Assembly: GCA_030272585.1 (NCBI GenBank)
Contig: BSYQ01000013.1
Coordinates: 2,914,001-2,978,000, forward strand
DNA: 64,000 nucleotides
Direction of reading: 5' to 3'
Source: Bryopsis sp. KO-2023
Lineage: Eukaryota > Chlorophyta > Ulvophyceae > Bryopsidales > Bryopsidaceae
Below are positions 6,801 to 36,547 of this stretch, one piece after another (the first letter of the stretch is position 1; each line of letters starts with the position of its first letter). Position numbers and translations under genes: made by a program. Under the pieces are notes generated by a model. It worked only from the letters and a program-made list of their open reading frames with translations, did no database searches and was not told where the DNA came from.

Positions 6801-8744
6801 CAGGTCGCGTTTCTGTTCATGCTTATGATCATTGTTTTTTTGTCACATTTATTTTCTTTTTTTTTTGTTGCGTTTTGAAATGTTGACTTTATCGATTACT
6901 AATCGTTTGAGAGAGATTGTTTTTCAATCTATTAATCTTTTTTTCTTTTTTTTCCACAAAAGACCCCCCAGTGGAAAGTGCTGCGCCGCCTGCAGCCGAG
7001 CCGAAAAAAACACCGGCACCCAAAGTCAAGAAACCTGAATTTCCTGAAAGCAAACCAATGGGGCCACCTCAGGTGGGTGGAAATTTATATACAAGACAAG
7101 ATATGTGTTTTTAAAAACCTTATGGGAACAATAATAGAAATTCTTATCATAAAAATTGTAACGCAAGGCAGTTTACAGGAGATTATGAGCTATCTTCCAT
7201 TTCTGTGTTCTTTCCAACACGTTTTCAATACGCTTGCATTAGAACTGTAAGCAATGCGATTTTTTTAGAAAAAAGAGTGATGTGATTCTGAAAAAGAGTG
7301 ATGTGATGTGACAGGTGCATCCCACAAGATCCTGGCAGCCACAGGTTGATAAACCAAACCCTGCTCATCTGGTTGCTGATGTTTTTGATGCCAAAAAGAA
7401 GGTAAAAATAAATAAATATGAAGACACCCTTTTTTTGTCTATCCTTTTGATCAAAAAGATTGGTATGTAAAGGACGAGCCCACCACTCCCTATGCAAACA
7501 AAAAAAATGAAAAAGAAATATCCTAGTGTTGTTTTTTTTTCTTCTTTTTAACATCATTCGTGGGAAAATCCTGGATATGATCAAATCATGAAACATTCGA
7601 TCATATGCATGTGTGTTTTATCTTTTTCTTATCTTTTTTTTTTCCAGGGGGGGGGGGGGAGGGGAGAGATTGGCAAAGTATCATTATGGTAAAAAAATCT
7701 TACATTCTTTCTGAACACAACTGACAGGGATTGAAGAAAGTAACAGATGCAGAAAAGGCTAAAAACATTCCAGGCAGGTCTGGCTTGGTTCCTGTGAAAT
7801 TACGGTCGACTGGGGCACCCACGGTGAAAGCTGGAAAAACGGAGCTGGTAATGGAGAGGAAATGGACCGTGGAAAATCACAAGGGCAACAAGGAAATCGT
7901 CCTCGAAAACACCAACCCCCGACAAACGGTGTATATCTACAAGTGTGAAGATTCTGTTGTGAAGGTGCGACTGGTCAGAGATGCTTTTTTTCCATTTTTT
8001 ATTTATTTTAATCTTTTTTTTTTTGGGGGGGGGGGGGGGGGTTGCCAGAATGGTAATTCCCTCCCGGGAGGACTAGCTGGGTCTGGATGTAGTTGACAAA
8101 ACTTCATAAGCTTTTGTTTGAGTGATTTCCCACATGTTTGCTGGATCGAGAGTGTGTTTGTTCTTTATGTTGGGTGTTTTTTTTGTTTTTGTTTTTTTAA
8201 TTTGAAAGGTCGATGGAAAAGTGAATGCCATCACCGTGGATTCCTGCAAAAAGCTGGGGCTTCTTTTCGAAACAGTCATGGCCTCGGTGGAGGTCGTGAA
8301 CTCTTCTGCAGTCGATGTTCAGGCAACTGGTCACATCGGGACGTTGGCTGTCGATAAATGCGATGGAGTCAAGGTGAGAACCTCTCGACCCAAATAAGCA
8401 GATAATAGAAAAAGGAGTGGATGTTCATGGACCACTCATTTCTTTTTGTTTTGGTCTCTTTTCACCTCACTTTGTTTTTTAATCAAGAGTGTTACATTCT
8501 CTTATCTTCATGTTAGTTTTTTTGGAATCCATTCAACTTTTTTTCCTTTCTTTCTCTTTTTTTCCAGGTGTATATTCCTGATTCGTCGACCGATGTGGCC
8601 ATTTCGACTGCAAAATCAGCTGGGGTCTTGGTTATTGTCACCGGTGGGGAGGAGCCAGCGGAGTCGGCCGTTCCAGACCAATTTGTCAGTGTGTTTGAAG
8701 AGGGAAAACTGATTACTAGGCCAGCAGAACATGCTGGGGCTTAA
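3881..8744 (+). CDS. CAP: cyclase-associated protein (CAP), actin regulator
   Basis: Twelve exons: 3881-3988, 4486-4567, 4824-4939, 5217-5255, 5580-5618, 5796-5964, 6247-6465, 6963-7072, 7315-7401, 7728-7964, 8209-8373, 8568-8744. They join in frame to about 515 residues, the usual CAP length. In order: an N-terminal coiled coil (DQLQSIVERLEKV); the helical folded domain (exons 3-7, including FNHFSFVSECLNSLTWV and WVNGIKSMILAM); a short Pro-rich linker with KKPEFPESKP; and the C-terminal CARP beta-helix (MERKWTVENHKGN, TVYIYKCEDS, TAKSAGVLVIVTGG). CAP family proteins recycle actin monomers from cofilin and promote nucleotide exchange on G-actin in the cytoplasm. The exact start is unresolved: the first frame is open back to a stop at 3860 and has no ATG, so the start codon may lie in a small upstream exon. 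Exons 10 and 12 were copied into the CACTA element at 26.9-29.3 kb. Confidence 0.92.
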
Positions 8745-11456: not shown

Positions 11457-12269
11457 ATGCCGACTGTCGAGGAAAAGATTGCTGCGTTACAAGCACAGCT
11501 GGATTTGTTGAGAGCGTCAGGAGAGCAGAGTTCCCCGCAATCTCGTTTGGACGGGATTTTGAAGAAATTTGCTGGGTCGGCGGAGATCGCTGAAAGTTTG
11601 GAGGAGCTGTGTCTTGCTCCAGGCAGTGACCCGCCACGGGCGGCGCTAAATCCAGTAGAGGTACCAGCAGCGGCCATTTTTGGCCATTATTTCGACGTGT
11701 TGGACACAGCAGCGGGTGCTCGCGTGGGTGCTGCTCTTGGTGTGCGTTCTGGGTTCTTTGCTGAGTTTAGTTCGTGGGCGCCTGTAGTGGCGTTTGCTTT
11801 TGATTGGTTTGTCCTGTTTGCTCAATTTGCGGCGCACTCGGATCAAGGGACTGCAGTAAAGAAGGCTTTGGAACCTTTTGTATCTTCGTTCGCGCCAATT
11901 TTGGAGTTGGCAGCCAATACGTTGGAAGTACACCGTTTGCACGCAGCACACGTGAACACGCCTTTGTCGGAGGCTTTTCGGGCGGTGTCCACGTCGGTTA
12001 AATTAGCAGCGTCGTCAGGGCGTTTTGTCGGAGACACTGCGCAGGCTACGTTGAAGTCCCTGAGGGACCAACAGCAGAAGGCAGTTTTTAAAAGACAAGC
12101 AGAGGGCTCGTCGCGGAGCGGCGGGTTCAGAGGAGATTCCTCAGGAGGTTTTTCTGGCGGTCGTTTTGGTGGTCGTCAGTTTTCGCAGCGAGGCAGAGGT
12201 CGAGCGAACCCCAACCTTCAGCCTTTGGGTAATAGAGGTGGAGCTCATGGGCAGAACCAAGGCTTCTAA
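11457..12269 (+). CDS. Gag-like ORF1 of the first YR retrotransposon
   Basis: About 270 residues from the first ATG at 11457; an in-frame TTG-initiated extension upstream is less likely. The N-terminus is a predicted coiled coil (VEEKIAALQAQLDLLRAS). The middle is a hydrophobic helical region with the motif FFAEFSSWAPVVAFAFD. The last 50 residues are rich in RGG/GGF repeats, typical of RNA binding. The motif F-x-x-E-x3-W-x-P-V-V-x3-F-D is shared with ORF1 of the second element at 51.5 kb, so this is a conserved structural-protein domain of this element family. The likely role is packaging element RNA. ORF2 starts 60 bp downstream in another frame. Confidence 0.8.
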   Translation: MPTVEEKIAALQAQLDLLRASGEQSSPQSRLDGILKKFAGSAEIAESLEELCLAPGSDPPRAALNPVEVPAAAIFGHYFDVLDTAAGARVGAALGVRSGFFAEFSSWAPVVAFAFDWFVLFAQFAAHSDQGTAVKKALEPFVSSFAPILELAANTLEVHRLHAAHVNTPLSEAFRAVSTSVKLAASSGRFVGDTAQATLKSLRDQQQKAVFKRQAEGSSRSGGFRGDSSGGFSGGRFGGRQFSQRGRGRANPNLQPLGNRGGAHGQNQGF

Positions 12270-12331
12270 GGCAGCGCTGGAGATTGCTCAGGAATTGAGA
12301 AAGTTGCGCGTGCAGGAGGATAAGCCAGGAG

Positions 12332-15933: not shown

Positions 15934-18540
15934 GCATCATCGAAACAGTTCACTCGTTTGCACATCAAACCAGCTCTTCCCTTTCATACAATGCAGCATT
16001 CCGATCCATTCATTTCATTCATGTAGAGAGCAAGGAAACGGAAAAGCAGAAACATGATTAGTAATCCTTGACGACTCCAGAAACTGGCGAAGGTACAAAA
16101 GCACTTGCTTGGCGCGCGCGAGGTCACCTGCGAACAAACACACTGTCTTGCGGCGGAGAGCAAACCACTGCCACTGCAATCAGACAGTTCCTCGACAAGC
16201 ACACCGACACAAATTGTGTCACACAATGCTGAAGCTGTGCACCGTTGCGAGTGCCGTCATCGCGCTGGGGGTTTGCCTCCAGCAACTGGACCAAGGCCGG
16301 CGTCGACGAAGGAGAGAAAGAGAGGCCGAGGCTCAGGAATGTGCCGAGCGCGACTCTAGAGTCGGTTCAGAAGAGGCAGGGAGCGAGGAAAACGACCGTC
16401 CCGGCGAGGACAAGGAAATTCAAGAGCTTCCTGCGCCAAACACCCCCACCACCAGCACCATCCTCGCCCACCGTTCCGCACCCCACTTTTTTCTCAATCA
16501 CTTCCGGATACCTGTGGAGGTGAGGCGCGCAAAACAGGAAGCTTTCGTTCGTACCTAACGACCCAACACTGTCTCGCCGACGACTCATGCATTGAAATTC
16601 GTCTGTTTGTTTTTTAGACGTTCCTTTATCTCGTCCCGGGCAGATGGTCGTGGCTGGCGACGAGCGGTGAGGTGAGAGTCGTCACGTGTCCAGACACGGG
16701 AACCCACTTCTACGAGAAGAAGGTGTTCTACGACGAGCGATTTCCGACGATGGTGGCGAGGTTGAAGCTCGAGCTCTTCGTGTCCCTTGTGGTGTCGGTG
16801 TCCTCCCCATTCCTGCTTCCTTGCTGTGCCTTTCGGGACTTCTCATACGTGTACCTGATCTCGGTAAGTTTCTAAGCATTTTTTTTCGCTTGCAGCCACC
16901 ATCGCTTGGGTTGTCTTTTCTCAGAGATTTACCATATCGTTTCGTCCACAGGAGTTCTGCCCAGGTGGTCCTTTGGACACCTACTTCCCAGAAGCCCAGA
17001 ACACAACCATCGAGACCTGCAGGTAGGGAGTCAAACATCTCAACAGTAGAGTAGATGTTCTTATTCAGCTGAAAAAAGAGTTTGACTGGCCCAAACTCTT
17101 TTTTTTTTGGGGGGGGGGGGAACCAGAAAATCTGATTCAATTTTGTTCTTGTATTTGCATGTGTCATGGGGCAGATGAGTTGAACAGTCCTCTTGTTTGT
17201 TGTCTTTCCACAGATTCTTTGCAGCCGAGTTGTTGCTGGCCTTGTGCACCCTGCACGAGCGCCATCTGGCCCTCCGAAACTTGAGTTTTGGCAGCACTCT
17301 TGTTTCAGAGGGAGGACATGTCCTGATCTGGGACTTTTCGCGCATTGTGGATACCCGCACCTGGGAGGGGCCCAACTCTAGCCACCCTGGCTACCTTGCT
17401 CACCCCAATGCCTCCTTGTTCTTGGTAAGTCCGATTGCTTTTTCTGAACATTTTTTTTTTTTAGAAGAGTGCTGGTGGTTGGCATTGATAACCATCCTTC
17501 ATTTACAAGAGAAGAGTTTGAATCGATAATGGTATATGGAGTTCAACAGCTAGAGCTCCCACCAGTTGCTGTCGGCCCCAAACCAAATGTAGCTGCATTC
17601 TCAGCTCTTGCAACCTCAATTCCAACTGCACATCGGAGTACCAGAAAGTTCTGTGAATGGATCTAATATGCTGACAATGTCCCCAGGCCCCCGAAGTGGC
17701 ACACAACCATGCTGCTGCAGGTCTGGCTGGGGATGTCTGGAGCTACGGGGTTGTGGTCTACAGGATGTTGGTGGGCCAGTTCCCCTTCCCAAACCTTGGG
17801 GAGGACACCAGGTGTTTCGACCCTTGGTTTGTGGATTCCGTGTGGAGGGTGTCGGGTGTGCTTGATACCAGCCCTCACTATGGGAGATTCACTATTAACC
17901 ATGTAATTTGATTTTCACGCCAACCGGATCGAAACGTGAAACACGTCGAAAAATGCCGGAACACACACAAAGACGTGCGGAAACACCTAGGTTCGACCCC
18001 TAGGCGTCTTCCGCCAAGATACAACTGCTTTCGACGCGTTTCGCAAGTGACGGCCTTTTGGCCTGATCAGCCGACAACGCAGACATCCACATCAACAACG
18101 TAGTTTTGAAAGAAACACAAAATACATCACATATATCTTGAAAAAGTATTCGGGGGTCGCCACCGTCGACTAATACGTCGTTAAAAAGCAGTTTCAGGTG
18201 TCAGAAAGGGCGCCCTGGAAACAACGTTGTTAAACTACAACGTGCAGTTGGTCATATACACGGTTGCTTTTCCAGACGTCAACTTCGGGTTCATCTGGAA
18301 ATATCGTTGCAGCTGTGTTGTGGTTGGACTGTTCTTGTACATGGTTGTCATTCTGGATATCATGTGTGGGAATTGTCGTTTCGATCACAGCATGGTTCAG
18401 GCAGATTTATGCATGGTTGTTTTTCTGGATATTAAAACAAATGTGGAGTACCCATTGTGTTTGCAACGCTCGTCCAACCATTACATGGTTGGCAGTGCCA
18501 TTCCTCAAATACACAACGTGGACCAAGACCTTTACAACGT

Positions 18541-21500
18541 TCACATTCCATTGTACATGCAATAGCGTGAATTCCCCCTTTCATCCACCATCCTCATCAT
18601 TTTTGTCGGAACCGTCTCCAACAAAACCGGGTAATTTTTTTCACCAACGCCCACGATCTTAAACACGTTGTTCAAGTCCACCGGACCTTGCCTAGGCTCG
18701 TTCCTAACCTTGGGGAACGTTGCAACGCTGTAGGCAAGCTTGTGGAGGTCCAACATGAGCACCACCTGGGTTGGAGCGGCACCGTGCTCAAAATCGTCAA
18801 TGATAAAGATGTCCAACACATGGCCGAGGTACATTTGGTATGGTCCACCATCGGATTGAAACGCAACGTAGACCATGGTATTGTGTGCGGCCTTTGGACC
18901 TCCTCTCCATCTCTTCGAAAAAAACGTTTCAGTGCATCCCCACATTTGCCTCTCCACCTTGTTCGTTCTGTAGATGCCGGCATATCTTGGGTTCCTCCCC
19001 TCCCATCCCGGCAAAGAGAATCCAAAATTCCTAAAAGGCAATCCACACCGCTTTTACCACAGTCCACAACGCGTAACACACGCAACACAACGCTCACAAA
19101 CAGACGCTCAATGCGTTCAGCCATTTTAACAGTGCCATACATAAGATGTGCATGGTTGTTTGCGTCACACGACCTCACCTTGTGGCAGTCTCCAACGCCT
19201 CCATGAAGGCACGGACATCGTTCTCTTCAGCATGGTTGGCCTTGAACGTCGCCTTACCTCCATCCCACGTGAGGATCATCTTGTTAGGCGACGTTTTGGG
19301 CTCGAACAACGCACGTAGATCATCAACCGTGCTCGGGGGGAGGGTGTTGAAATGAGCGGCAAGTGTCCTACACACAACAACATTGTCAGCATCCTTCGCC
19401 ACCATGCAGAACAAAACAAAACAACACAACCATGCAAGCAAAGACATACACCATGTGAAAGACCCTTTATTCATTGTCACAGCCACACACAAATTCAACT
19501 TACAATTGGCAGAGCACATCGTTGGCATACATGGCACTTGGAGCCCTCTTTACCCTCCCCGCCATAGTTCGTTTCTGTCGCCCAAGAGCCCGTTCGATCC
19601 AAAACTCCGAGACCCCCGCCGCCGGACCTCTCAGAGCTTCTTGGCGAAAGCCCGCACACACAAGTTTATGCATGTTAAACTTGCAAATGGTCTTCCCAAA
19701 CAATTCCTCGGCACGCCTAAAACACAAAAGAAAAAACACAACATCCGTGTCCCTCAACTCCAATTTTTTTGCAGCGATGTAAAAAACCTCAGTAACACTG
19801 TGCCTACCACTCAACACGTTGTAACCCAGATCAATGTTTACCTGCAGTAGCGCATGGTTCTTGACTGAATCTTCCTCGCCGTCGTCTCGAAGTCCTTGTC
19901 GTGGATGTGGGCTTGCACACACACATAGTGTGTGGCCACAGCAACCAGGTCGGTCCAGGCACGGAGCTCTTCTCTCGTCAAGCAGGCCTCCATCACGAAA
20001 CCTTCGTAGGACCTACATTGACAAGGTTAATGCAACACTCAACAACGCTGGGAAAGGCAATAACATGGCACAAAAAAAACGATGGAAATAAGGCTGGTGA
20101 CAACGACATAACAATCATTCACAACGAAAGAAAGGCGGACAACAAGGAACAAGAACTCACCGGATAAAAACCATGATGTCATGCATGTTCGAGTACACAC
20201 GCTCCGCCGTCAAGTCAACGATGCAAGCACCGAAGTCCGTTGGTACCTTCAGACCTTGCAAGCGTTGTTTGTAGGCGGCGGCGTGGTGTCTTCTTTCCCG
20301 TGAGGTCACGCGTTGTTTGATCTACAAACACACCGCCACTGGACGTAAACACATGGCATTGCAGCACTACAACAAGGTTGTTGAGGGACACACTCGCACG
20401 AGTGTTTTCAGCATATTCGCGTTGCTAAATCCTTACCTCGCTCAGGAAATCCTTGACCAAGCCCATCAAAATCAGGTGTGCAACACCCATGACCTTGAGC
20501 TCGGGCGTATAATAAGTAAGGTCAGCAAGGGCGGTGGAGCCGTGAGTATGTGCTTGTGTTGGGGTCAACAAGCCTTGATCCACCAGCTCAGCTGCCCTCA
20601 TGTGCTCCTCCCTTGTTTTCACCATGTCTATCATGTCCGGTTGCCATTGTCGCTTCAACTAAAACAAAAAACAGGTCGCAACGTTAATAGGCACAAACAC
20701 AGCGTTTGTGTGCTTCTGCACAAGGCAAGCACGGCCAAGCACAACGCATGAATGTAAATCACAATTGTTCAAGCCCCCTCGCACACCGTGTATCACATAC
20801 TCCACACCGACCTTTCCACGCCTGCCGACCATTCTCATCAATTCCACATCGCCGTCGTCTAGTGGGACGGGGGAAGTGTAGCCCAAGTAACGTTGTGTTT
20901 TGGTCGATGTGCCTTGCACACTTTGGGTGGGACCAAAACAATCCGGGCAAGCGTTTCGAGCGGTCATGCCAAGGTCATTCATGACCTTGGCCATCCATGG
21001 AGAATCCCCCGCCACAGAGGAAATTATTGCCGAGTGTTCTACCCTCTCTCGGGCGGGGGATCCTCCGCGAAACGTCCACGAATCCGTGTGAAGGAAACCG
21101 TTTCCCGGCATTAGAGCCTTGAAGTCCCTCACTATCAGCCCAAGTATGGCTTGCAAGGTTTTGGGCTCCTTGGGGCCGGATATAATCAGCAATGGGTAGT
21201 GCAAGGAGGTTTTCATGGAATCCTCCTTGCACACATCATCTGCCATGCAAACAAGTCATAACACCGTGTCAAAGCGTTGAAAAGCATTGTGACACTTTGT
21301 AAAAGCATTGTGGAATGTCCAGAACACACTGTAAAAACACAATGTGGAACTGGAACAACGGGATTACAATGCACCTGCCCCAGTTTGCAGCGATGTAACA
21401 CCGTACCACAACGTAGAAAGAATGTCCCGAGTGAATAATTCCCACGCCTTCCCGTTGTGCAACCGAAATAGTCCCCTCCTAAGTGGTAGAGACCGGTCTT

Positions 21501-23124
21501 TCGAAGCGAGTCTCCAACGAGAGCCGCCAGCCGTTTGAACATCGGAGTCGTTCGAATTCCATCGTTTGCCCCTCTGTGCCGTGATTGGCAAAAGGAAAGG
21601 CTCCCGGTCATCACACGGAGGAGGCTCTTGACTCCAAAGTAGAAGATTTTCAAGCAAGGTTCCAGCGCGGTTGAAACCCCTTTTTGCACCGTGAATATAG
21701 GCTTTTTGCAATGCTCGCAAAGAAGGTCCAGCGATGGCCGCAGAAACCGACTGTTGGAAAAGAAAACGAACCATGCTTTGGTATCACTCGACCTTGTGTT
21801 ATGTTGTGTGAACGTTGTGATATATATCACAACGCAGAGCATATATGCGACAATGGTGGATACTGTTACAACAACGACAATACACACCCACCGGTCTTTC
21901 ACGTGATAAAACTTGCATCCTCTTTCGCAAGAGAAATATGTGACATCTTCAAGACATGGGACCCCCAACAGCCTCTTGATTCGAAGCAGTGATGTGGGAA
22001 GAACATGGTTGGAGGGCAGAATTGCACTGATCAGTTTCAAATTGGCCTCAAAGGCCTCCCTCGTTGTGCCGTGGTCGGCCTTTTGTTGTAGAAGGAGCAT
22101 AATCACATGAAGCAAGGTGAACAAGCATCCCGGGTACAACGGCGTTTTTAGTTCCTCGTTGTGGTGAACGTCTCCAAAGAAGTCGGGGCCATCATTCTGA
22201 ACGCTGCCAGAGTCAGTGTCCTCGTTGTGGACAGAGCTATCATCGTTGTTGATCGTGGTTTCAGAGCTATTTTCTTCTTCATCATCTTCCTCGACTTCGG
22301 TTTCTTCCTCCGTGTCCATCCCAGGGGATCCATCTGACTCGCTTCCATCAACGGCAGGGAGTCCCCCATCGCCTCGGAGGTCGCCATCGTTGTCATCCCC
22401 ACCATCGCCGTTGTGAATGTCAAGAACATCGTTGTAAACCTCTCCACCACCGTCATTGTGAATGTCCAGGCCATCGTTGTTCGCGTCCAGACCATCGTTG
22501 TTCTCGTCCCTGAAACCGCTGGCATCTTGGACATCATCGTTGGGGATGCTGCTCGCACCCACATCACCTCCATCGCGTGGTTGTTGAAGGGGTGGTGCCA
22601 AACGCCTTTCTTCGCGTGATGCCTCGTTCTCGTCTGTCAGCCATGTAAAACATGCTAAAAAGTGGTGCAAACCTAGGGTATATACGTTGTCACAGCTTAT
22701 AGTTGTAATATTCTATAACTGAAACCTCAACACAATTTGAATCCCTTGTATCTCATCACCAGAGCATCAGATGTCTTTCAAATTTTGATGGTGTGACAAA
22801 TGTGTTAAAACACATTACTTGTCAAAATTTCAAAGACATCCGATGCTCCAGTGATGAGATACAAGGGATTCAAATTGTGTTGAGGTTTCAGTTTTATTAT
22901 TAAGGTAACTTATAAGTTAATTAAAAAGGATTTTCTGGTTGCACACTTAAAAAAAACCCACCTTCCCATGCCTTCACCTCCACCAAAAGCTCCTCCAGCC
23001 TGGGGCACCTCCTCTTGTGTCCCACCCAATGATTCCTAGACCTAATAAGCTCCCTACAGCAAGGGCACCTATTTCCCCCCGTTTTTTTAAAGAGTGTTTT
23101 ATACCCACTACTATAATTCGGCAT
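18541..23124 (-). CDS. tnp2-type (CACTA/EnSpm) transposase, multi-exon
   Basis: The first exon (about 23124-22962) encodes a zinc-finger-like N-terminus (CPCCRELIRSRNHWVGHKRRC). A long exon (about 22640-21900) has an Asp/Asn-rich linker, then the LYPGC...LLHVIMLLLQQ segment and CERGCKFYHV, which matches the region before the catalytic core of tnp2 proteins. An exon near 21246-20800 has the core: PLLIISGPKEPKTLQAILG, then HSAIISSVAGDSPWMAKV and ACPDCFG (the NDFPAY...CP.C position). Near 19720-19530, FGKTICKFNMHKLV and GVSEFWIERALGR match the C-terminal His/ER region. The last exon ends near 18541. The role is cut-and-paste transposition. Exact introns are uncertain, and around 21,300-21,780 two frames look partly coding, so a frameshift or short intron may be present. 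Confidence 0.72.
22719..22891. repeat. 173-bp foldback (inverted-repeat) element in transposase intron 1
   Basis: Two arms of about 70 bp are reverse complements with few mismatches. The left arm starts CTGAAACCTCAACACAATTT and the right arm ends with its complement at 22891. The short loop contains a smaller AATGTGTT/AACACATT palindrome. It looks like a foldback MITE or a strong cruciform between the zinc-finger exon and the main transposase exons. Confidence 0.85.
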
Positions 23125-23315
23125 GGCGGCGGATTACACGGTTCCGTCGAAATCGCGAAAGGAAATTCGGCTGCTGCATGAGTGAAACCTGCGTTGTGGA
23201 TGTCATGACGTAACTGCAACGTGAACCTTGACGTCCACATCGGTGGACGTCACGGTGCGCGCGAACGTCAGTAAAAACCGGCCGGCCGCCACGAGCGCAC
23301 TTCACGTTTTCCAAT

Positions 23316-25683
23316 ATGCCGACTGCCACCCACGCGTTTGTTTTGAGACCGAAGGGCCCCGAGGAGGGCGAGGCCGCCGCCGGCTTCATGCTTGGAGATC
23401 CGCGGGAGAGTGACCGCGAGGTCGTTAAGAAGCTCCAGGGTTGGGGCCGGATCTCCAACGTGGCGCTGGCGGCGGTCACCACCGCCTTCCTCGGGGCGGT
23501 CACCACCGTCGCGGTTTTGACGACGGGCCTGCTTCCACTCACCCTCCCTCTCCCAGACGACGAGCAGCCGCTGGACAGGTTCCTGGAGGGGGTGGAGGAT
23601 CTGCTGGTGCTTGGGAAGGCGGCGGTAATCGTTGTGCCTTGGGAGGAGGGGGGGGGAGGATCCGAAGGGAGGAAAGAGGGGGGGGGGTCGCCGTCTCGCT
23701 CGGACGCGTCGCCGGACCCTCCTGAAAAGGGGGTGCACCCCACAACGTTGGAGGGCGCTGTGGGCTGGCGGGATGCAGCCTTTTGCACGGTGCGGAGGAG
23801 GGGGCAGGGAAGGGGAACGTACGCGACGTTCACATCGGAGGGTTTCGAATGGTTAACAAAGGTGGGTGCACGGTCGGCGGAAAAAAAAAGGGGGGGAGGG
23901 GGGTTGGCTAAGCTTCAGGGTTTCTTTCTATTTCTGAAGCCAAAGAAAACAACAGAGTTTTCTTTGTTTCTCTATGTTTTTCTGGTTGTTTTGTTGTTGC
24001 TGTTGCTGAACCATGTTCTGTCCCTGTATAGCCATGTTGTATTTGCTAAAAACCGTGCAAATGTGTGTGCAGTCCATCCGCCAGTGGTGGCCGAGGTGCA
24101 AGGACCAATCCTACCACGACCACCGACGCGCCCACATCCAGTGCGGGAACCTGGCCGGGTATGTGGCGGGCGCGGGGGACCCATACGGAGGCTGTAAACT
24201 GCGGCTCGCCCGTCACATACCCGCGACTTTGACGCCGAACTTGGATGAAAACGAGGTAACCATGCAAAGAAAGCACTGTTCGTTGTTGTCAGAATAAAGA
24301 ACCATGCAAAATTAATCATGTTCGTTGCAGTTTGTTTGTATAACCATGCAAAAACAACCGTGTTCGCTGTGCAGGTGGGAGGGGTCGATGTCACGAACGC
24401 GGACGGCGCGAAGCGAATGCGGGAGTTTATGAGTCTCGTGGAGAAGAGACTCATGCTCCAGAGGAGCAACAGGGGGGCAATTGTCGACGGAGCTCAAACC
24501 TTCAAGCTATCACTGAAGGTGATCCGAGGTTATGTTTCGAAGAGGTATGGTGTTTGCGTTGGTATTTCGTTGGGTGTCGTTGTGTTTCTCCGGTTTAACC
24601 ATGTTAAGTTGTTGAGTGTCGTTGTGTTTCTCTGTTTTAACCATGTTAAGTTGTTGAGTGTCGTTGTGTTTCTCTGTTTTAACCATGTTACGTTGTTGAG
24701 TGTCGTTGTGTTTCTCTGGTTCAACCATGTTGAGTTTTCTAACCATGTTATTGTTGTGTTTAGAATCGCTGACGAGAGCCGGGTACGCTTCACCAAGACC
24801 CACACGGGGAACTTCGTGGAGTCGAACCTTCGTCACCCACTCAACGACAACCGTGAACTTTTCACGGAGGACGCCGAGTGGGTGACGACGGTTCGCCTCC
24901 AAGAGGCGCGCTTCGCGGAGCATGGCGACGTCTACGTCACCACATCCACGAAGCTCGACGACGAGGGCGCCGAGACCCCCCCGGACGTCGGCTCGGAGTC
25001 TTCCGACTCCCCCCCCGTCGCTGACGCCGGTGACGACCGCGATGACGACCGAGACGTCGGGAAGCAGAAGTCGCCCACCACACCCCGCCGTGGTCTCCAC
25101 TTGGCCCGTCGTGGGAAGAGCCCGAAGAAGTCCAAGAACCTCCCCCGTGGTGTGCGCGTCCCCGACGCACTGAGGACCCCCTTCTCCGCACGCCGTTCCA
25201 CCCGACTCGCGGCACAGCGAGGTAACCTTGCAGCTGTCTTGGATTTCGTTGCAGTCGTGTTGTTTTTTGTTCTGTGTACCTTGTGCTGAACTTGTATAAC
25301 GTTGTGTTGCAGATTCTTCCTGGAAGAATGTCGACGAAGGGTTCGACACGGAGCGCGACCTCGTGGAGGTGAGCGACACGCCGGCGGAGGGCCAGAGGGG
25401 GTCGGAGGTGCTGCCTCCAGCGGTGGGCGAAGCACTCACAACGGCGACGGCCCCAGGTGCAACGGCGGAGGAGGGGGGGGTGCCTTCTGAGACGCCCACC
25501 AGAAGCGCTTCCACCAGGGACTCAGCTGAGAGGCGGAGGAAGAAGAGGAAGGGAAGGAAAAGGAAGGGGGGGGAGGCTGAAGAAGACACAACGTCGGCAC
25601 CTTCCGGTGCAACGGCGGAGGAGGGAATGACAACGGCGGAGTCGGGGGGGAGAAAGAAATCCAAGAAAACCAAAAAAAAGTAG
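23316..25683 (+). CDS. second CACTA gene: basic, probably nuclear protein (TNPA-like position)
   Basis: At least five GC-rich exons starting at the ATG at 23316: 23316 to about 23860; about 24074-24258; about 24376-24545; about 24762-25221; and about 25313-25683. They end at TAG 25681-25683. The second exon carries SIRQWWPRCKDQSYHDHRRA, and the third VDVTNADGAKRMREFMSLVE. The C-terminal third is highly charged, with nuclear-localisation-like stretches (RRRKKRKGRKRKGG, KKSKKTKKK). I do not recognise a domain. Its place beside and divergent from the transposase, and its basic tail, suggest the DNA-binding partner protein that CACTA elements usually encode. GC content and codon use differ sharply from the host genes around it. 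Intron limits are approximate. Confidence 0.55.
24577..24740 (+). repeat. 42-bp tandem repeat in an intron
   Basis: About 3.5-4 copies of a 42-bp unit containing TGTCGTTGTGTTTCTCTG and AACCATGTTAAGTTG. It lies between two exons of the second CACTA gene. The AACCATG word is frequent all through the transposon. Confidence 0.8.
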
Positions 25684-25685
25684 AA

Positions 25686-26196
25686 GGCAACTGAGTTTGG
25701 GGATGATGGGTGTGGACTTTGATTTGTCTTGTTGTTTTTTTTCTGGCTGTTTTGGGGGGCAACTGAGTTTGGGGATGATGGGTGTGGACTTTGATTTGTC
25801 TTGTTGTTTTTTTTCTGGCTGTTTTGGGGGGCAACTGAGCTTGGGGATGATGGGTGTGGACTTTGATTTGTCTTGTTGTTTTTTTCTGGCTGTTTTGGGG
25901 GGCAACTGAGTTTGGGGATGATGGGTGTGGACTTTGATTTGTCTTGTTGTTTTTTTCTGGCTGTTTTGGGGGGCAACTGAGTTTGGGGATGATGGGTGTG
26001 GACTTTGATTTGTCTTGTTGTTTTTTTCTGGCTGTTTTGGGGGGCAACTGAGTTTGGGGATGATGGGTGTGGACTTTGATTTGTCTTGTTGTTTTTTTCT
26101 GGCTGTTTTGGGGGGCAACTGAGTTTGGGGATGATGGGTGTGGACTTTGATTTGTCTTGTTGTTTTTTTTCTGGCTGTTTTGGGGGGCAACTGAGC
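25686..26196 (+). repeat. 71/72-bp tandem repeat, about 7 copies
   Basis: The unit starts GGCAACTGAGTTTGGGGATG, and the copies differ mainly in the length of one T run (71 or 72 bp). The array begins 3 bp after the stop codon of the second CACTA gene and forms its 3' flank. The long open frames across it on the minus strand are repeat artefacts. Confidence 0.92.
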
Positions 26197-26313
26197 TGGG
26201 GGATTTGTAATTAACGTTGCAGAGTGGTCTGTCGTCGCTGTAAACGACATCGTTGCAAATGAACCACTCAACCATGTGAAAACTTAGTGTCTCCAGAATT
26301 AGGTAAACGGAGT

Positions 26314-26405
26314 GACATCGTCGAATCGACATTGTAAGAACAATTTTAATCTTTCGTTTAAGTGAAATATTGACCTTGATCTTACAATGTCGATTCGACG
26401 ATGTC
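26314..26405. repeat. perfect 26-bp inverted repeat with 40-bp loop
   Basis: 26314-26339 (starting GACATCGTCGAATCGACATT) is the exact reverse complement of 26380-26405. It lies at the border between the CACTA coding half and the captured-sequence half, so it could be an internal element end or a regulatory hairpin. Confidence 0.88.
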
Positions 26406-26883
26406 GTTCTTTGCCGGCGTGCTTTTGCGGTCGCCTCAAGGGAAAAAGCTGTGAGCTTCCGTGGACCATCGACGCTTCTTTCTGGTTTGAGCCTGAGCGT
26501 TGGAAGGGTTGTTCTCGGACGGCTTATGATTTGGGGGCCCCTCGCGCCAATGGTGGTTTCGTAGGTGAACGAACGTTTTGGCTCCAAGATCTGCTGCCGA
26601 AAAAAGTGGGTCCCGCTGGAACCAAAGGAGATGGTTCACAACCTCTGGTGCGTATGTCCTCCGGCTTGCCCACCTCACAGAACACCATGCGAACCACCAC
26701 AGAGGTCGCAACCTGGAACCGGTGTTGGGTGGGAGGTGGCTGGTGGGAGTGATCTATTGTTTAATTTTGTTATATGTTTTTTTTTTCAGTACACCAGTTC
26801 TGTTCTCGAACTCCCCTCTGAATAGGCAAGAAACAGGGCTGCTGGTTGGGTTTTTTTGTGGGGTGAGGTTTTTGGATTTTTTC

Positions 26884-27235
26884 TTTCAAGGTCAGGTCTG
26901 GTGCTTGTGAAATTACGATGGACTGTAGGCTGGAAAAACGGGGTTGGTAATGGATAGGAAATGGACCGTGGAAAATCATAAAGGCAACAGGAAGTCGTCC
27001 TCAAGAACGCCAACCCCCGACAAACGGTGTGCATCTACAAGTGCGAAGATTCTGTTGTGAAGGTACCAGTTGGCAGGGCTGCTCTTTCTCTATCCCTTCT
27101 TTTTTTTTTGGGGGGGGGGGGGGAAGGGGCGTCAGAATAGTAATTCCCTATGAGGATGTGGCAGGGTCTGGATGCAGTTCACGAAACTTCAGAACCATGC
27201 GTTCGAGTGATTTCCCACATGTATGCTGGATTGTG
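26884..27235 (+). pseudogene. captured CAP gene fragment (exon 10, following intron)
   Basis: This segment matches the CAP gene at about 7,776-8,150: most of exon 10 (MDRKWTVENHKGN, then frame-breaking small deletions), its splice donor, the intron T-run/G-run tract, and unique intron words such as GAGTGATTTCCCACATG. Because intron sequence is included, it was copied as DNA and not as a retrocopy. Frame breaks make it non-coding as CAP. Confidence 0.88.
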
Positions 27236-28516
27236 ACCCTCGCCTGTCCGGACATCCCAAGTCAACTACGTGAGTGAAAGTGTCAACTCCATCATCAGTC
27301 AGTCTGTACAAGGATGATAACGTTCTTGGTCACAGAAAATCCTTTGCACTTGGTGGGAAGAATGCTGCTCAATTCCCTGTTTATGTATGTCGGCTATGTC
27401 CAGGTATTCCAACGTGTTGCAAATCTTGCTGCCCATAATTTCCAACCCCCATCGCTGGTTTGTCGTTCACATCTTCAGGTCGCATGTCTGAAACTGGCAT
27501 TTTTCTTGAAGCCAACAGCAATGTCCCTCCCAGTATTTCTTCAGCTGCTGGGGTCAGTTTCTAATTCTCAGGGGATTTTTGTGTGTAGATTCGTCGCATC
27601 ATAGCTCTGTGGCCTTTGGGCCAGCAGCATAGGGAGATACGTGACGGCCACGACAATAATTGGCTCCTGCTGGAGTTTGCGTTATCGATCCCCTTCGCAG
27701 CCGGGTACAAGACAGAGGTAGGATTAGCCGGATGTCTGCCAGAGATCGGCTTCCCCCCTGGAGGTCTGACTTCCAATTAATGGCCTGCAGGCATCAAGAT
27801 GCTATGTTTAGCCTCCCTGGTGTTGTGAGGTATCTGCACATCAATTTTTGAAACCCACTTGCTGCACAGAAGTATGATATTATGAATCAGGGTGTTTCTG
27901 AGAAAAAGAATTGAAAAAACTCTACCAGGGAAAGGACATGACTTCAGTGTGCTTTTTCTCAAAAAGAAAGTAAAAAGAGAAAGCAGAGTAGGAATGGCAA
28001 AGATTTGATTTAAGTTTGTTAAACTAATGGGGAAATTGCTGTGCATTTGTAGTAGGTGGACCTTCGATGCCAGCTGTAGGAAGAATCTGACAAGACAGGC
28101 CAGGCCGAAGGCAGTTTGGGTGCCGAGGAGAACGAAGTAAAGAAGCCAAGGTGTGGATACAGAAAAATATGACACATAATAAACCTATCGGTTGTCTAGC
28201 GCTCAAAGCACTACCTCTTCTTCTTTCTATGAGCTGTAGGAAATCGGAAAAAAAAAAAATGTAAAGTTTTGAAAGTGGCAAAAGTGCCTTTCAAACAGCG
28301 GTGACTGTGACCAGGTGCATCTAGGGGAGAAGTGAAAAAACTGACGGAAGCGAAAAACTCTTTCAATTCCACCTGTAACGCATGGTCAGCCGGATTCCAC
28401 CGATGAGGGATAGATAGAGAGAATCCACATCAGCACCGGAGACATGATCCGAAGCCACAGGGCCAGCACCTACTCCGGGATGCTGTAATTCCCGAGTGGT
28501 ACAACAGTGGTAATTG

Positions 28517-28873
28517 ATGAGCCTAAACCTGCCCCACCTCCTCCCCCTCCTGCTCCTTTACCTCCAGCACCAGTTTCTGCAAGGCCACAGGCAAAGGTGT
28601 CAGGTGCCCAAGCTAAGTCAACTGGAGCCTATGCCCCAGCAAAGGCCACTGGTTCATTTGTTCCTGCAAGCCCTGTGGAGAAACCTGCAGAACCAGCTCC
28701 AGTTAAGAATCTGGAGAAGCCTGCTGAGGTTCCAGAAGAGAAGCCTGAGGCTCCAGTTCAGCAACCAGAGGAAACTCCAGAGAAACCAGTACGACAACTA
28801 GGCACTCTGTTCTGTCCTTCATATGATAGATCCCTTGATGTGTATGCATGGAAGATCATTAACCAATGCCTTT
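28517..28873 (+). pseudogene. captured Pro/Ala/Glu-rich coding fragment of unknown origin
   Basis: An open stretch of about 120 codons encodes a proline-rich run (KPAPPPPPPAPLPPAP), an Ala/Ser/Lys segment and repeated KPAE/KPEAP blocks. It ends in a stop at 28873. It is clearly biased like a linker region of a cytoskeletal or scaffold protein, but no domain is recognised. It does not match the CAP linker. Its position between two CAP fragments inside the transposon suggests a piece of another host gene. Confidence 0.4.
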
Positions 28874-29099
28874 GATTTTTGCAGGCATTTGAAAAGTCGC
28901 AAGAAGCAGATGTTATTTGAAATTGTGGGGGTTATCCTGAACTGCGATGTTCTATTGAGACTATCCTTTCTTTATGGTTTTGTAGCGCTTGCCACTGTAA
29001 CAGGTTTGGTCTGGTTCCACCACACTTGTTAAATTAAAACTAAAAGTAAAACTAATTAAAACTATTACACTCTTCCGTGTTCATTTTTAAATTTATTTC

Positions 29100-29255
29100 A
29101 GGTTTTTCTTTCTTTATCATTTCCCCAGGTGTATATGCCTGACTTGTTGACCGATATGGCCATTTCGGCAGCAAAATCAGCTGGGGTCTTGGTTATTGTA
29201 ATTGGTGGGGAGGAGCCAGTGGAGTCGACCGTTTCAGACCAATTTGTCACGTTCG
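29100..29255 (+). pseudogene. captured CAP gene fragment (last exon)
   Basis: Pyrimidine-rich intron end plus exon, matching CAP 8,540-8,695. The encoded peptide VYMPDLLTDMAIS, then AKSAGVLVIVIGGEEP and DQFVT, differs from CAP at a few residues. After DQFVT the sequence stops matching CAP and continues in frame into an unrelated Ala/Ser/Cys-rich stretch. Confidence 0.88.
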
Positions 29256-29572
29256 CATCCACAACTGCTTCTGCATACACAAAGGAGGGCACAGTTGCAG
29301 CTGAAAGCTTTTGTGCGGGGGATTCTTCATCAGTGACAGAAGGTGCAACCACTGTCGTTGGAAATGCTTGTGGTGGAGTGAAGCAGTTGGAGGCTTGCCG
29401 TGGTGTTGGTGCTTCTTGCTGTGCGAGAAGCTTCAAGAGGAGGCTCTGTAACTATTCAAAAGACGGTTGCAAGAATGGTCCATGGATCAGAAATAATGAC
29501 TACAGTTATGAGAAGAATACAAAAAGGTCTTTTCAAGATGGGAAGAAAAACCAGTGCTTCTGCCTCCAGTAG
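29256..29572 (+). pseudogene. Ala/Ser-rich, Cys-rich open stretch fused to the CAP fragment
   Basis: It continues the CAP frame for about 105 codons to a TAG at 29570-29572. It is rich in Ala, Thr, Ser and Gly, then has clustered cysteines (GASCCARSFKRRLCNYS, KDGCKNG, QCFCLQ). In style it resembles the C-terminus of the secreted Ala-rich gene at 47.2-49.4 kb (VARCCKKGK, CTCGLG), so it may be a captured relative of that family. The sequence similarity is weak. Confidence 0.35.
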
Positions 29573-29735
29573 AGAGCTGGAGGAGATTCTTATCTGTTAA
29601 TCCAGAATTAACATGCAGTTCGATATTTCGTCTTTTCATGTTTTCATTTGTGAGTTGGGATGGCAGGGAGTGACCCTTATTTCATTTTTAGTCTGCTAGC
29701 AATATGATGTTTTATTGATATGATGTTTTGTAAAG

Positions 29736-31222
29736 AACGTTGCAAAACCCAAAACCAACAGTGTGACAAAGCCTTTCATCGATGTTATAATCAACGTTGC
29801 AAAGTGCAAAACCAACAGTGTGACAAAGCCTTTCCCCGTTGTAACAACCAACGTTGCAAAGTGCACAACCAACAGTGTGACAAAGCCTCTCCCCGTTGTA
29901 ACAATCGACGTTGCAAAATCAGCAACCAACAGTGTGATAAAGCCTTTCATCGTTGTTATAATCAACGTTGCAAAGTGCTGACAAATCATCGTGAAAAGGC
30001 CTGTCCGCGTTGTAACATGCATCGTTGTGGAGTGCACATTCTTCCGTGCTCAGAGACCTGTCTCCGTTGTAACATGCATCGTTGTGGAGTGCACATTCTT
30101 CCGTGCTCAGAGGCCTGTCTACGTTGTAACATGCATCGTTGTGGAGTGCACATTCTTCCGTGCTCAGAGGCCTGATTACGTTGTAACATGCATCGTTGTG
30201 GAGTGCACATTCTTCCGTGCTCAGAGGCCTGATTACGTTGTAACATGCATCGTTGTGGAGTGCACATTCTTCCGTGCTCAGAGGCCTGTCTCCGTTGTAA
30301 CATGCATCGTTGTGGAGTGCACATTCTTCCGTGCTCAGAGGCCTGTCTACGTTGTAACATGCATCGTTGTGGAGTGCACATTCTTCCGTGCTCAGAGGCC
30401 TGTCTCCGTTGTAACATGCATCGTTGTGGAGTGCACATTCTTCCGTGCTCAGAGGCCTGTCTACGTTGTAACATGCATCGTTGTGGAGTGCACATTCTTC
30501 CGTGCTCAGAGGCCTGTCTACGTTACACGCATCGTTGTGGAGTGCACATTCTTCCGTGCTCAGAGGCCTGTCTACATTGTAACACGCATCGTTGTGGAGT
30601 GCACATTCTTCCGTGCTCAGAGGCCTGTCTCCGTTGTAACATGCATCGTTGTGGAGTGCACATTCTTCCGTGCTCAGAGGCCTGTCTACGTTGTAACATG
30701 CATCGTTGTGGAGTGCACATTCTTCCGTGCTCAGAGGCCTGTCTACGTTACACGCATCGTTGTGGAGTGCACATTCTTCCGTGCTCAGAGGCCTGTCTAC
30801 ATTGTAACACGCATCGTTGTGGAGTGCACATTCTTCCGTGCTCAGAGGCCTGATTACATTGTAACACGCATCGTTGTGGAGTGCACATTCTTCCGTGCTC
30901 AGAGGCTTGTCTACGTTGTAACATGCATCGTTGTGGAGTGCACATTCTTCCGTGCTCAGAGGCCTGTCTACGTAACATGCATCGTTGTGGAGTGCACATT
31001 CTTCCGTGCTCAGAGGCCTGATTACGTTGTAACATGCATCGTTGTGGAGTGCACATTCTTCCGTGCTCAGAGGCCTGATTACGTTGTGACATGCATCGTT
31101 GTGGAGTGCACATTCTTCCGTGCTCAGAGGCCTGATTACGTTGTGAACTGCATCGTTGTGGAGTGCACATTCTTCCGTGCTCAGAGGCCTGTCTACGTTG
31201 TAACATGCATCGTTGCAAATGA
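29736..31222. repeat. 57-bp satellite array, about 26 units in two subfamilies
   Basis: Five units of an early variant (AACGTTGCAAAGTGCA...) at 29736-30015 are followed by about 21 units of a second variant (CGTTGTAACATGCATCGTTG then TGGAGTGCACATTCTTCCGT). Most units are 57 bp; several are 54 bp. No stop arises in one frame of each strand across the whole second variant, giving apparent ORFs of more than 400 codons both ways. It lies just inside the right end of the CACTA element, where subterminal repeats that bind transposition proteins are usual. Confidence 0.92.
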
Positions 31223-31803
31223 AGCACTCAGCCATGTCATTTCGAAAAGACGTCAACCATGCTAACCGGGCCTTCTGCGTGATTCGCCGGCTGGATGTGG
31301 GTGCTAAAAAAACCAGCATTGTTAAATGTGCACTCCACAACGATGAAAAACAACCATGCAAAAGGGGTGTAGAACAACGTTAATGATGTCATTAACCATG
31401 CGATTGTTTACAACGTATTCAGCGAATTTCCTATAGTGCCTGCTGCTTGCAGGTTTTTCGCGAGCATCTTCCAGGTGAGTTGGGAAAACTTGACTTGTTT
31501 ATCATCATTTGAGTTCCAAGTCTGACTGCTAACAATGGAAGCAGATTTTCTCCATAGTAATCTTCGGAATTGAGTGTTGTGGTGGCCACAGACTTCAACA
31601 GTTGATTTGAAAGATATGGATCATGTGTGGAAGGAACAAAATATGGCGGAAGTTCACCGGGTTCCATAATTGAGACGGCTGTGTTTCCTTCATGAGAAGC
31701 TTTTTTTGATCCGTAACAGAAATCCCCTAGAAACACCACACTTGATTCCTTAATTCTTGCATCCACCGAACTGAGACTGAAGTCCCCCCTGTTGATGTGA
31801 TAG

Positions 31804-32025: not shown

Positions 32026-32062
32026 CTCCTCAGCCCTACTGAGAAGGACTTAGGGGGGGGAA

Positions 32063-32178
32063 TGGGACTGGTGGAGGGTTTTTTTTCCTTTTTTTTTTAC
32101 CCTCTGCTGGTCCCGGGAGGGGGGAGGCATTTCGTTAGGAGGTCTCCACAGCACCCCGCGTTGGCTGGAGCGGGGTGC
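32063..32178 (+). promoter_or_regulatory. paired 3'-UTR hairpins of the first pseudokinase
   Basis: Stem 1 is 32063-32078 with 32099-32114 around a T-rich loop: 16 pairs, four of them G-U. Stem 2 is GCACCCCGC (32151-32159) with GCGGGGTGC (32170-32178). The same two hairpins follow the stop codon of the paralog. Confidence 0.7.
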
Positions 32179-34945: not shown

Positions 34946-36547
34946 ATGCGCGCGTTCACCATCGCCACAGTCGCCACAATAGGGGGAATTTTGCACCTCT
35001 ACAGCAGATGGCGTGGACAGCGCAATCTCCGCCAACATGACGAGGTGGAGGGCGCTGAAAACAGCGAGCAGGAGCACAACCGGGCCGACCGCAGCACACC
35101 AGAGAAAGAGGGGGGAGACCTCGGCGGCAACTCTGGTGTACCTGCTAGCCCAACAATCACCACAGCCGTCTCGCGTCCCTGCTCAGTTCTCCCCTTGGCA
35201 GAGGTAGGAGGAGCACCTTGTCGATTCTTCTTGCTCTTTCATGCCCCGCGAAACTTCGAAGTTTTACACCGACGTAACTCGCTCGAACCTCGGCATTCCT
35301 TCTTCGCGGTGGTCCTATGCAATGGAAACCACTGTAACCTCATAGGCGTGAGCTCAGAAGCCGATTTGAGTTCGCTGCGGTGTGACTTGCCTGGTTTCTT
35401 TCCCGTGACGCTCATTGAATTCACATGCTGTGACGGCAGGACTTGTTTTCTGGATGGCAGCTGGCGAGGTACTTCGCTGCGGGGCAGTCGCGCTCCATAG
35501 GCTTGTGCCGGTACGTAAAAGCGCCTGCCTTTGAACGTGCATGCTTACGACACGAGACGTCACCTGGAAAACTGTTGTTGGGATGAGAGACGTCGGAAAA
35601 GACGTCATATGGGTGGAAATCTATTTGGTGTGGGACAATAACACAGGATAGAATGTGGGTTTCTCCCAGGTTCATTGCTGCCAATGTGCTGGTACAGCTG
35701 GAGGCATTGCATTACCGCGGGGTAATGCACAGAGACATCAACATGGACTCTGTCCATGTTGATGTCTCTGGTCGGGGGTTCCTGTTTTTCGGGAACCTCA
35801 GGCATGCCACCAGGACCCGCAACACCCCCCGAGCCTCGCTGCCTGACCCTCACTTCACGGTATGATCGAGTCACCTACTGTTTCGTTGCTCCCAGATTTA
35901 TCAATCAGAGTTGCAGTTGGATAGTCTCCCTGCTGAACAATGTGGGGGCTTTTACTGGTGGGGGTAATTCTGGCTATAACCGTTGACACCCAGTGAACTT
36001 TTTGGCATAAACAGGCTCCTGAAATCGCCTACGGGTGGGGTGAGGGAACGGAGGCGGATATTTGGGCGTTCGGGGTATTGGTCTATCGAATCTTGATAGG
36101 CCGATTCCCCTTCCCCAATTTCCAGCAGGAAGACCGAGGTCGGGACCAGGGTTACATTAACTCCGCTTGGCGGGTTTGCAGCCTGTTGGATGGAAGGCCT
36201 GGCCTCACCAGCTTTTTTGCCTCGATCTTCCAGGTAATCGATCCTTTTAAACTGGACAGAACTGCAAAAATTGAGTGGCTTCAATTGGATCAATGGAAAT
36301 ATATGGACAGCTGTGACCAACTCTGATGGAAGGGGCTCAGAAATAATGGATTGGTGTGTAGGTGAAGAAGGAGTTCAGGCCAACTGTTGCAGAATTGAAG
36401 CAACATGCATTCTTCAGGGGAGTCGACTGGTACGGGCTTGCCCAGAGGACAGTCGAAAGTCCACTTCTGGGTGAGGTCGTTCCAGTCCCCATCGAGGATC
36501 AGCAAGTGGTGGAACTCTTTGCAGGGTCGGAGCCCTGCATTGAGTGA
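34946..36547 (+). CDS. AGC-like pseudokinase, paralog of the interrupted gene
   Basis: Exon 1 (34946-35203) has a hydrophobic N-terminus (MRAFTIATVATIGGILHL) and an acidic linker. A second exon (about 35,218-35,468) carries a poorly conserved N-lobe (GFFPVTLIEFTCCDGRTCFL fits strands beta4-beta5). The hinge exon was not found. Exon 35670-35859 has the catalytic loop MHRDINMDSV (HRD kept, Asn replaced by Ser) and FFGN in place of DFG. Exon 36015-36233 has APEIAYG and ADIWAFGVLVYRILIGRFPF, ending TSFFASIFQ. Exon 36362-36547 closes the domain (EFRPTVAELKQHAFF). Intron phases match the first gene. Loss of the metal-binding Asp predicts no catalysis; a scaffold or receptor-like role is possible. 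If no hinge exon exists, this copy is itself a pseudogene. Confidence 0.72.
35731..35769 (+). repeat. perfect palindrome inside the HRD exon
   Basis: 18-bp arms (35731-35748 and 35752-35769; left arm AGAGACATCAACATGGAC) flank a 3-base loop. It encodes the catalytic-loop residues RDINMDSVHVDVS. Confidence 0.95.

Follow-up and report, generated by a model that had tools for sequence, protein, structure and literature searches.

The window analysed here (the whole stretch of 64,000 nucleotides) very probably holds a complete, possibly autonomous transposon of the CACTA superfamily, which would have entered an exon of a kinase-like gene by cut-and-paste, duplicating the trinucleotide CCT, and which carries a transposase-like gene and a cargo built up stepwise (Table 1). 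On this reading the interruption of the kinase exon is a clean transposition, neither a rearranged nor an exonised relic. Related copies allow the successive stages of CACTA gene capture to be traced in a photosynthetic host, probably an alga, and a permuted arrangement of pieces of a CAP (cyclase-associated protein) gene puts the capture mechanism within reach of testing.

The host exon belongs to the kinase family, and repetitive DNA of about 13.5 kb interrupts it. As stated in the preliminary description, its two parts add up to 222 bp (74 codons), with the frame restored and the shared end FFASIFQ; the use of a paralog as a guide to the uninterrupted exon was likewise sound. The Pkinase profile matches the left part with an E value of 4.4e-7 (30.0 bits), just below the Pfam cut-off of 31.7. 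In the exon at 17218-17427, for which Pfam gave no match, the HRD aspartate is absent and DFS is found instead of DFG (read by eye); a pseudokinase identity for the split gene is plausible. The insertion is predicted to add a stop after 11 codons of reading into the element. The light-harvesting family PF00504 has 107 matches in the genome, which indicates a photosynthetic eukaryote, and Rfam gave no match in the window at gathering scores.

Table 1. Features of the element, its insertion site and related sequences in the window.
Feature	Position	Strand	Basis and remarks
Complete CACTA-type element	17876..31438		13,563 bp; ends common to genomic copies, 3-bp duplication, missing from two paralogs
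Target-site duplication CCT, left copy	17873..17875		Flank comparison
Target-site duplication CCT, right copy	31439..31441		Flank comparison
Left terminal inverted repeat CACTATGGGAGATTCAC	17876..17892	+	17/17 left ends examined
Right terminal inverted repeat, CACTATAGGAAATTCGC on minus strand	31422..31438	-	Right-end comparison
71-bp tandem repeat	25686..26204		7.3 copies; internal-deletion copies rejoin within or near it
57-bp subterminal tandem repeats	29736..31215		4-5 plus 21.5 copies; rich in AACSATG/CATSGTT
Transposase-like gene, nine exons	18541..22712	-	Exons placed by hand; model runs from 22712, true 5' end may lie further
Exons of transposase-like gene	22712-21892, 21750-21407, 21239-20812, 20658-20437, 20321-20161, 20012-19842, 19716-19504, 19367-19179, 19030-18541	-	
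Split kinase exon, left part	17687..17875	+	189 bp; Pkinase match and paralog alignment
Split kinase exon, right part	31442..31474	+	33 bp, GCTGCTTGCAG included; paralog alignment; 189+33 = 222 bp
Intact paralogous exon (used in the preliminary description)	36015..36233	+	Pkinase E 6.1e-6, below Pfam cut-off
CAP piece: exon and beginning of next intron	26869..27231	+	26889-27231 76.6% to host CAP 7776-8146; 26869-27231 88.7% to L079
C1:3095875-3096683-like piece	27303..28059	+	82%
C3:2517025-2517336-like piece, inverted	28060..28372	-	89%
C9:1442361-1443104-like piece	28503..28986	+	86-93%, three stretches
CAP piece: last exon and its splice acceptor	29054..29249	+	29103-29249 87% to host CAP 8541-8688; L079 match from 29054
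Alanine/cysteine-rich open frame piece, C3:6607490-6607943-like	29250..29693	+	86% overall; 91% across 161 bases read
Host CAP gene (part in view)	6201..8744	+	Related to the element's CAP pieces

The termini of the element read CACTATGGGAG...CCTATAGTG. Two paralogs without the insert, L002 (93%) and L003 (90%), run continuously through ACCAGCCCTGYTGCTTGCAGGTTYTTCGC; these two make up the empty-site alignment, and L004 (83%) is a third, more diverged place. Their junction is CCCT-GYTGCTTGCAG-GTT, with a single CCT at the empty site, and in this alignment the 11 bases GCTGCTTGCAG (31442-31452) are host exon. The 11 bases CACTATGGGAG (17876-17886), which lie ahead of the left-end query, open all 17 complete left ends examined (loci were given for 20 of the 33 left-end matches). 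A TAGTG-type right end was present in 25 of 25 right ends examined (29 of 29 matches with loci); the right-end query was deliberately stopped at this terminus, and its support comes from the flanks, which differ beyond it. The uninterrupted host exon would read CCCTGCTGCTTGCAG / CCCTGCTGCTTGCAGGTTTTT, with one CCT only.

The shared ends, the 3-bp duplication and the two paralogs bear out the earlier claim of a CACTA-type insertion within the kinase-like exon. The borders proposed at that time, 17886 and 31453, were 11 and 14 bases off when set against the genomic copies and the paralogs; the exon sum stayed at 222 bp because CACTATGGGAG, which is element, and GCTGCTTGCAG, which is exon, had been swapped, 11 bases each. 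The junction expected of an empty-site allele, GGGAG-GTTTTT, is not that of L002 and L003, so that a different junction was found, in paralogs rather than in an allele.

CCT is present at both ends of the element, where no clear target duplication had been reported. Identical 3-bp flanks occur in 13 of 15 left/right end pairs (about 0.2 expected at 1/64 each), some of which span 27-94 kb, where nested insertions are possible. The two pairs without matching flanks are L027/L053 (aaa-ata) and L030/L051 (taa-ttt), and two of the 17 left ends have no partner. Since 13 of 15 paired ends show matching flanks, the eroded termini or later rearrangement proposed previously are unneeded, and they are rejected on the shared ends together with these flanks. 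With regard to the CACTAT/ATAGTG motifs pointed out in the preliminary description, ATAGTG is the true right end, and the CACTAT at 17890 lies within the left end as a second instance of that motif. The terminal inverted repeats are 17 bp long with 14 of 17 bases matching (by eye). The putative subterminal motif AACSATG/CATSGTT, which was picked after inspecting the element ends, occurs 62 times in the 13.6-kb element (23 of them within the 57-bp arrays) versus 10 times in the other 50.4 kb.

The corrected borders also bear upon two readings in which the element is removed by splicing. According to the first, that of the preliminary description, an insert with eroded or rearranged termini and borders at 17886/31453 is an intron using TTGCAG as an element-supplied acceptor, as the 222-bp exon sum and restored frame might suggest. 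The true borders yield the same sum, and we consider this reading scarcely credible: CACTATGGGAG begins every complete left end examined, both GCTGCTTGCAG and TTGCAG are host exon in two paralogs, and the proposed intron begins with ATTCAC, not GT. The second reading, partial splicing, treats the element as a new long intron running from a left-end donor to TGCTTGCAG, with some near-normal product. TGCTTGCAG is acceptor-like, and the fragments in soybean Tgm-Express1 are described as being processed as exons and introns (PMC1947982), but joining the nearest donor in the left end, AT/GTAATT (by eye, position 17903), to GTTTTTCGCG would alter the length by +16, out of frame, and the intron would be 13.5 kb long versus approximately 85-260 bp for those introns of the split gene that were seen by eye. 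Partial splicing is very improbable.

The element carries a transposase-like gene whose eight introns are all GT-AG and whose frame is open over 1012 codons of the gene model, the donor of exon 2 having been selected among several so that the frames join. Compared with a copy diverged by 10%, the gene has a pN/pS of 0.20 and no stops in 922 codons, and intron divergence exceeds that of the next exon in eight of eight cases. The protein is under purifying selection between two subfamilies, which supports a functional protein. Its earlier designation as a tnp2 transposase is unconfirmed because it matches no Pfam family: a search with 828 residues of the spliced protein gave no Pfam match at E values up to 10, and the open reading frames of the element gave MSP1a alone, at chance level (E 0.16). 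The sole match of the PF02992 profile across the genome is another locus, on C12, with none in the element. Aligned with the C12 protein, the transposase-like protein falls in the expected register, but 10 of 200 shuffles score equally high and the alignment is not significant.

The cargo of the element is related to five other loci, intron-bearing CAP gene pieces among them, and is found at 98-100% in 13 places, the window included. The host CAP gene matches CAP_N (E 1.4e-13) and, in three exons, CAP_C (E 1.5e-10, 1.6e-16 and 2.9e-7). The C9 locus has a longer proline-rich open frame than the corresponding element piece. The C1, C3 and C9 loci, which were read as stretches of 0.6-1.1 kb, as were the element copies in stretches, are probably donors and not decayed element copies. 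The transposase gene is almost wholly missing in at least four of the copies listed (L020, L023, L024, L032), in which 18689 is joined to 25.7-26.0 kb; one of them (L020/L044) is 8.9 kb long with the duplication TCT. The cargo is present in such copies as well. From its arrangement we infer an order and direction of acquisition, in which the element would have taken up the alanine/cysteine-rich piece, a CAP gene piece would then have replaced about 300 bp of it, and the C1-, C3- and C9-like pieces would lastly have replaced the middle of the CAP piece.

Related element copies carry the CAP piece in circularly permuted form. The order in L079 is 8687-8841 followed by 7776-8688, a 1,066-bp unit the start and end of which agree within 2 bases. 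As a single junction is common to the permuted copies, two of which agree at 98%, they are ascribed to one event. A present-day host CAP locus was rejected as the source of the permutation, since no tail-before-head order was seen outside elements among the matches listed (at least 49, from a scan that scored 40 of 64 candidates).

The permuted order suggests capture by way of a DNA circle. We tentatively propose, while leaning somewhat against it, that the CAP fragment came from an excised 1,066-bp host circle (7776-8841) that opened at 8687/8688, where 2 bases overlap, and replaced about 300 bp of earlier cargo. If true, a cut-and-paste transposon would have captured a gene fragment through a circle and then been patched repeatedly from other loci. 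We give an even chance to capture without a circle, for which the routes would be linear gap repair involving template switches, derivation from a tandem duplicate, or capture between elements in tandem (the Pack-CACTA model). For Pack-TYPE gene capture the proposed mechanism is tandem insertion followed by re-mobilisation (PMC13317346, PMC8903248), and the C1, C3 and C9 pieces resemble patchwork repair; however, independent switches would rarely yield the 2-base coincidence of unit ends in L079, and the permuted order is seen in no host CAP locus among the matches listed. A literature search found no paper joining CACTA, circular DNA, gene fragments and capture; the related papers listed, judged by title and start of abstract, did not deal with capture by CACTA elements, and nothing useful was found on CAP together with pseudokinase expansion.

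The element shares with CACTA (En/Spm, EnSpm) transposons the CACTA/TAGTG termini, short terminal inverted repeats, subterminal repeats, a spliced transposase-like gene and a 3-bp target duplication, here CCT (as stated for CACTA in PMC4158355). It differs in that its protein is matched by neither PF02992 nor any Pfam model, and in the nine exons modelled versus two to six in most of the plant set described in PMC4158355. As with the plant Pack-CACTA or Pack-TYPE elements described in PMC8903248, gene fragments lie inside CACTA termini, many copies exist, and copies without most of the transposase gene occur (at least four among the matches listed). In contrast to these, the window copy retains an open nine-exon transposase-like gene, so that it does not qualify as non-autonomous, and the CAP piece is permuted in related copies. 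Among the copies of the element, strict Pack-CACTA status is possible only for the four listed, because nearly all of their transposase gene is missing. Soybean Tgm-Express1 is likewise CACTA-type, lies inside a gene and carries five unrelated host gene fragments, but it is described as 5.7 kb long and located in an intron (PMC1947982), whereas the element reported here, known from its sequence, is 13.6 kb long, lies in an exon and has a transposase-like gene. By these comparisons the element is a CACTA insertion of Pack-CACTA-like type.

The window lies in a 91-Mb, 28-contig genome (G000:C13:2914001-2978000) whose 107 matches to PF00504, the chlorophyll a/b-binding family, identify the host as a photosynthetic eukaryote. 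Genome searches with the left end (query 17887–18700) and right end (query 31200–31438) of the insertion gave 33 and 29 matches, respectively. Of the 33 left loci, 20 were returned; the left end is complete in 17, each starting with CACTATGGGAGATTCACTATTAAC, whose first 11 bases lay outside the query. All 25 right ends inspected terminate in CCTATAGTG, the point at which the query also stopped, and further out the copies have different flanks. The element therefore occupies 17876–31438, starting 11 and ending 14 bases earlier than in the preliminary description, which had divided the exon into 17687–17886 and 31453–31474. No target duplication had been recognized there, but CCT is found at both borders. 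Each left end was matched to the closest right end located no more than 100 kb away on the same strand of its contig. This gave 15 pairs for the 17 left ends; in 13 of the pairs the 3-bp flanks are identical (the exceptions are L027/L053 and L030/L051). A 3-bp target duplication is a hallmark of CACTA elements according to PMC4158355. The terminal inverted repeats, compared by eye, agree at 14 of 17 bp. Five of the element pairs whose 3-bp flanks match span 29–94 kb (e.g. G000:C8:3850671-3944357), perhaps owing to nested insertions.

Two close paralogs, L002 (93%) and L003 (90%), lack the insert and, aligned to the window flanks joined at a single CCT, are continuous through ACCAGCCCTGYTGCTTGCAGGTTYTTCGC; a third place, L004 (83%), was left out of this alignment. 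Together with the shared termini and the 3-bp duplication, these paralogs bear out the original proposal that a CACTA-like element splits an exon of the kinase-like gene. Since both run through ACCAGCCCTGYTGCTTGCAGGTTYTTCGC, GCTGCTTGCAG is exon, and the earlier view that the right border of the element supplies a splice acceptor has to be abandoned. The uninterrupted exon is 189 + 33 = 222 bp, reading ...GVLDTSPAACRFFASIFQ. The 222 bp reported previously stands as a total but not in its composition: that join would read ...DTSPHYGRFFASIFQ, and the lengths agree because an 11-base transposon stretch had replaced an 11-base exon stretch. A GT-AG intron at 17887–31452 was rejected, as it would begin ATTCAC. 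Read into the element, the exon gives HYGRFTINHVI and then a stop at 17909, so that, splicing aside, the kinase C-lobe past the insertion is lost.

The left exon part and the intact paralogous exon (36015–36233) match Pkinase with E values of 4.4e-7 and 6.1e-6, both slightly below the Pfam cut-off. Exon 17218–17427, which had no Pfam match, has LHERHLALRN and DFS by eye at the expected HRD and DFG positions, and the split gene would fit a pseudokinase. Each kinase gene is followed, past its stop codon, by a conserved block (32053–32197 and 36562–36694) in which a 9-bp hairpin can be made out by eye, GCACCCCGC...GCGGGGTGC; of the block's 13 occurrences, whole or partial, 12 are on C13 and one on C14, and it had no match in Rfam.

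Within the element, nine exons on the minus strand (22712 to 18541) were delimited manually, guided by the sequence and by the phase of substitutions within codons, in a model that may be incomplete at its 5' end. The eight introns (115–167 bp) are all GT-AG, and the frame is open over 1012 codons up to the stop. Against a copy diverged by about 10% at C4:2370750 (L025 and L078), pN/pS over 922 codons is 0.20, with no stop; the first, second and third codon positions carry 60, 39 and 134 substitutions, and divergence in every intron exceeds that of the exon it precedes. The protein is thus functional, or was until recently. A Pfam search at E up to 10 with 828 residues of the spliced protein matched no family. 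PF02992 (Transposase_21) has two listed matches in the genome, both at G000:C12:548569-549374, one with internal stops, and the alignment of the nine-exon protein to the C12 protein was equalled by 10 of 200 shuffles. The C12 locus is a different CACTA-like lineage, and our view of the nine-exon product as a CACTA transposase is based on its position, the selection on it and an apparent similarity in motifs rather than on a profile match. Two long plus-strand frames at 23232–25286 (321 and 346 codons, one with 42-bp repeats), without a Pfam match when taken from the first start codon, are possibly a second element gene.

The right half of the element carries foreign pieces on its plus strand, two of them similar, intron sequence included, to the host gene for cyclase-associated protein (CAP; 6201–8744, plus strand), itself confirmed through matches to CAP_N and CAP_C (E from 1.6e-16 to 2.9e-7).

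Coordinates of foreign pieces and of the target-site duplication
Feature	Position	Strand	Match	Identity
CAP piece	26889-27231	+	host CAP 7776-8146	77%
CAP piece	29103-29249	+	host CAP 8541-8688	87%
Alanine/cysteine-rich piece	29250-29693		open frame C3:6607490-6607943	86%
Target-site duplication CCT, left copy	17873-17875		flanking bases	
Target-site duplication CCT, right copy	31439-31441		flanking bases	

Between the CAP pieces lie sequences resembling contigs C1 (82%), C3 (89%, inverted) and C9 (86–93%); the C3-like piece abuts the C1-like piece, with the C9-like piece some 130 bp beyond. Each has one listed place outside the element copies (40 of 74 candidates scored). The C3 open frame matching the alanine/cysteine-rich piece, which we infer to be a host gene, is 91% identical across the 161 bases read, and none of the element ends listed lies near it. 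The cargo region is present at no fewer than 13 places including the window, at 2.9–3.5 kb and 98–100% (40 of 74 candidates scored); among the loci compared L065 is closest, with 7 base differences and one gap in 3,527. In four copies (L020, L023, L024, L032) 18689 is joined to 25.7–26.0 kb, which removes almost the whole transposase gene; one of them is 8.9 kb long with the duplication TCT. Among the loci compared, the left 2.3 kb of the window copy is nearest C6:3447571 (99.2%) and its cargo nearest C6:3036583 (99.8%), hinting that element copies may have recombined.

CAP is usually a low-copy gene. By our grouping of the matches listed, at least about 18 CAP-like loci, the window gene among them, lie at about 1.66–2.92 Mb of C13, mostly at 2.5–2.92 Mb. 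Two retroelements in the window (11421–15405 and 51515–55256) contain reverse transcriptase, RNase H and a further frame that, judging by a motif, may encode a tyrosine recombinase, a combination suggesting that they may be DIRS-like.

The CAP piece of the C8 copy (L079) forms a single 941-column match to 7776–8688 (77%), immediately preceded by 8687–8841 (83%). The C2 copy at 7.55 Mb (L083, 98% to L079) has the same order by sequence and coordinates, and that at 0.77 Mb has the tail start in L051 and, across 84 unread bases, the head and end in L054, an arrangement that fits this order. These copies have one junction in common and are counted as a single event. At L082 (C3) the alanine/cysteine-rich frame continues for about 300 bp where the permuted copies have the CAP piece, and L055 and L056, without CAP there, keep part of this stretch (94% over 123 bases). 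This suggests an order of capture in which the element would have gained the alanine/cysteine-rich piece, a CAP piece would then have replaced some 300 bp of it, and in window-type copies the C1, C3 and C9 pieces would have replaced the middle of CAP. In window-type copies the 8687–8841 tail is also absent, with a single 19-base chance match among 12 loci. The tail-before-head order was not seen outside elements among the 49 matches listed (40 of 64 candidates scored). A former tandem duplication is a possible source of the permutation; the opening of a circle at 8687/8688 would account for the coincidence of start and end within 2 bases, which two independent points in a 1,066-bp piece would show in about 0.5% of cases by our estimate.

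By its termini, target duplication and subterminal repeats the element is a CACTA transposon. Such elements are reported from algae in PMC4158355, and, judged by title and abstract opening, the open-licence papers listed include none on captured host genes in algal CACTA elements. The insertion itself is ordinary; its interest lies in the layered, partly permuted capture. The cargo works like that of Pack-CACTA elements, but the window copy retains its transposase-like gene and so falls outside the strict sense of that term in PMC8903248. The closest described case we have encountered of multi-gene CACTA cargo within a gene is soybean Tgm-Express1 (PMC1947982).
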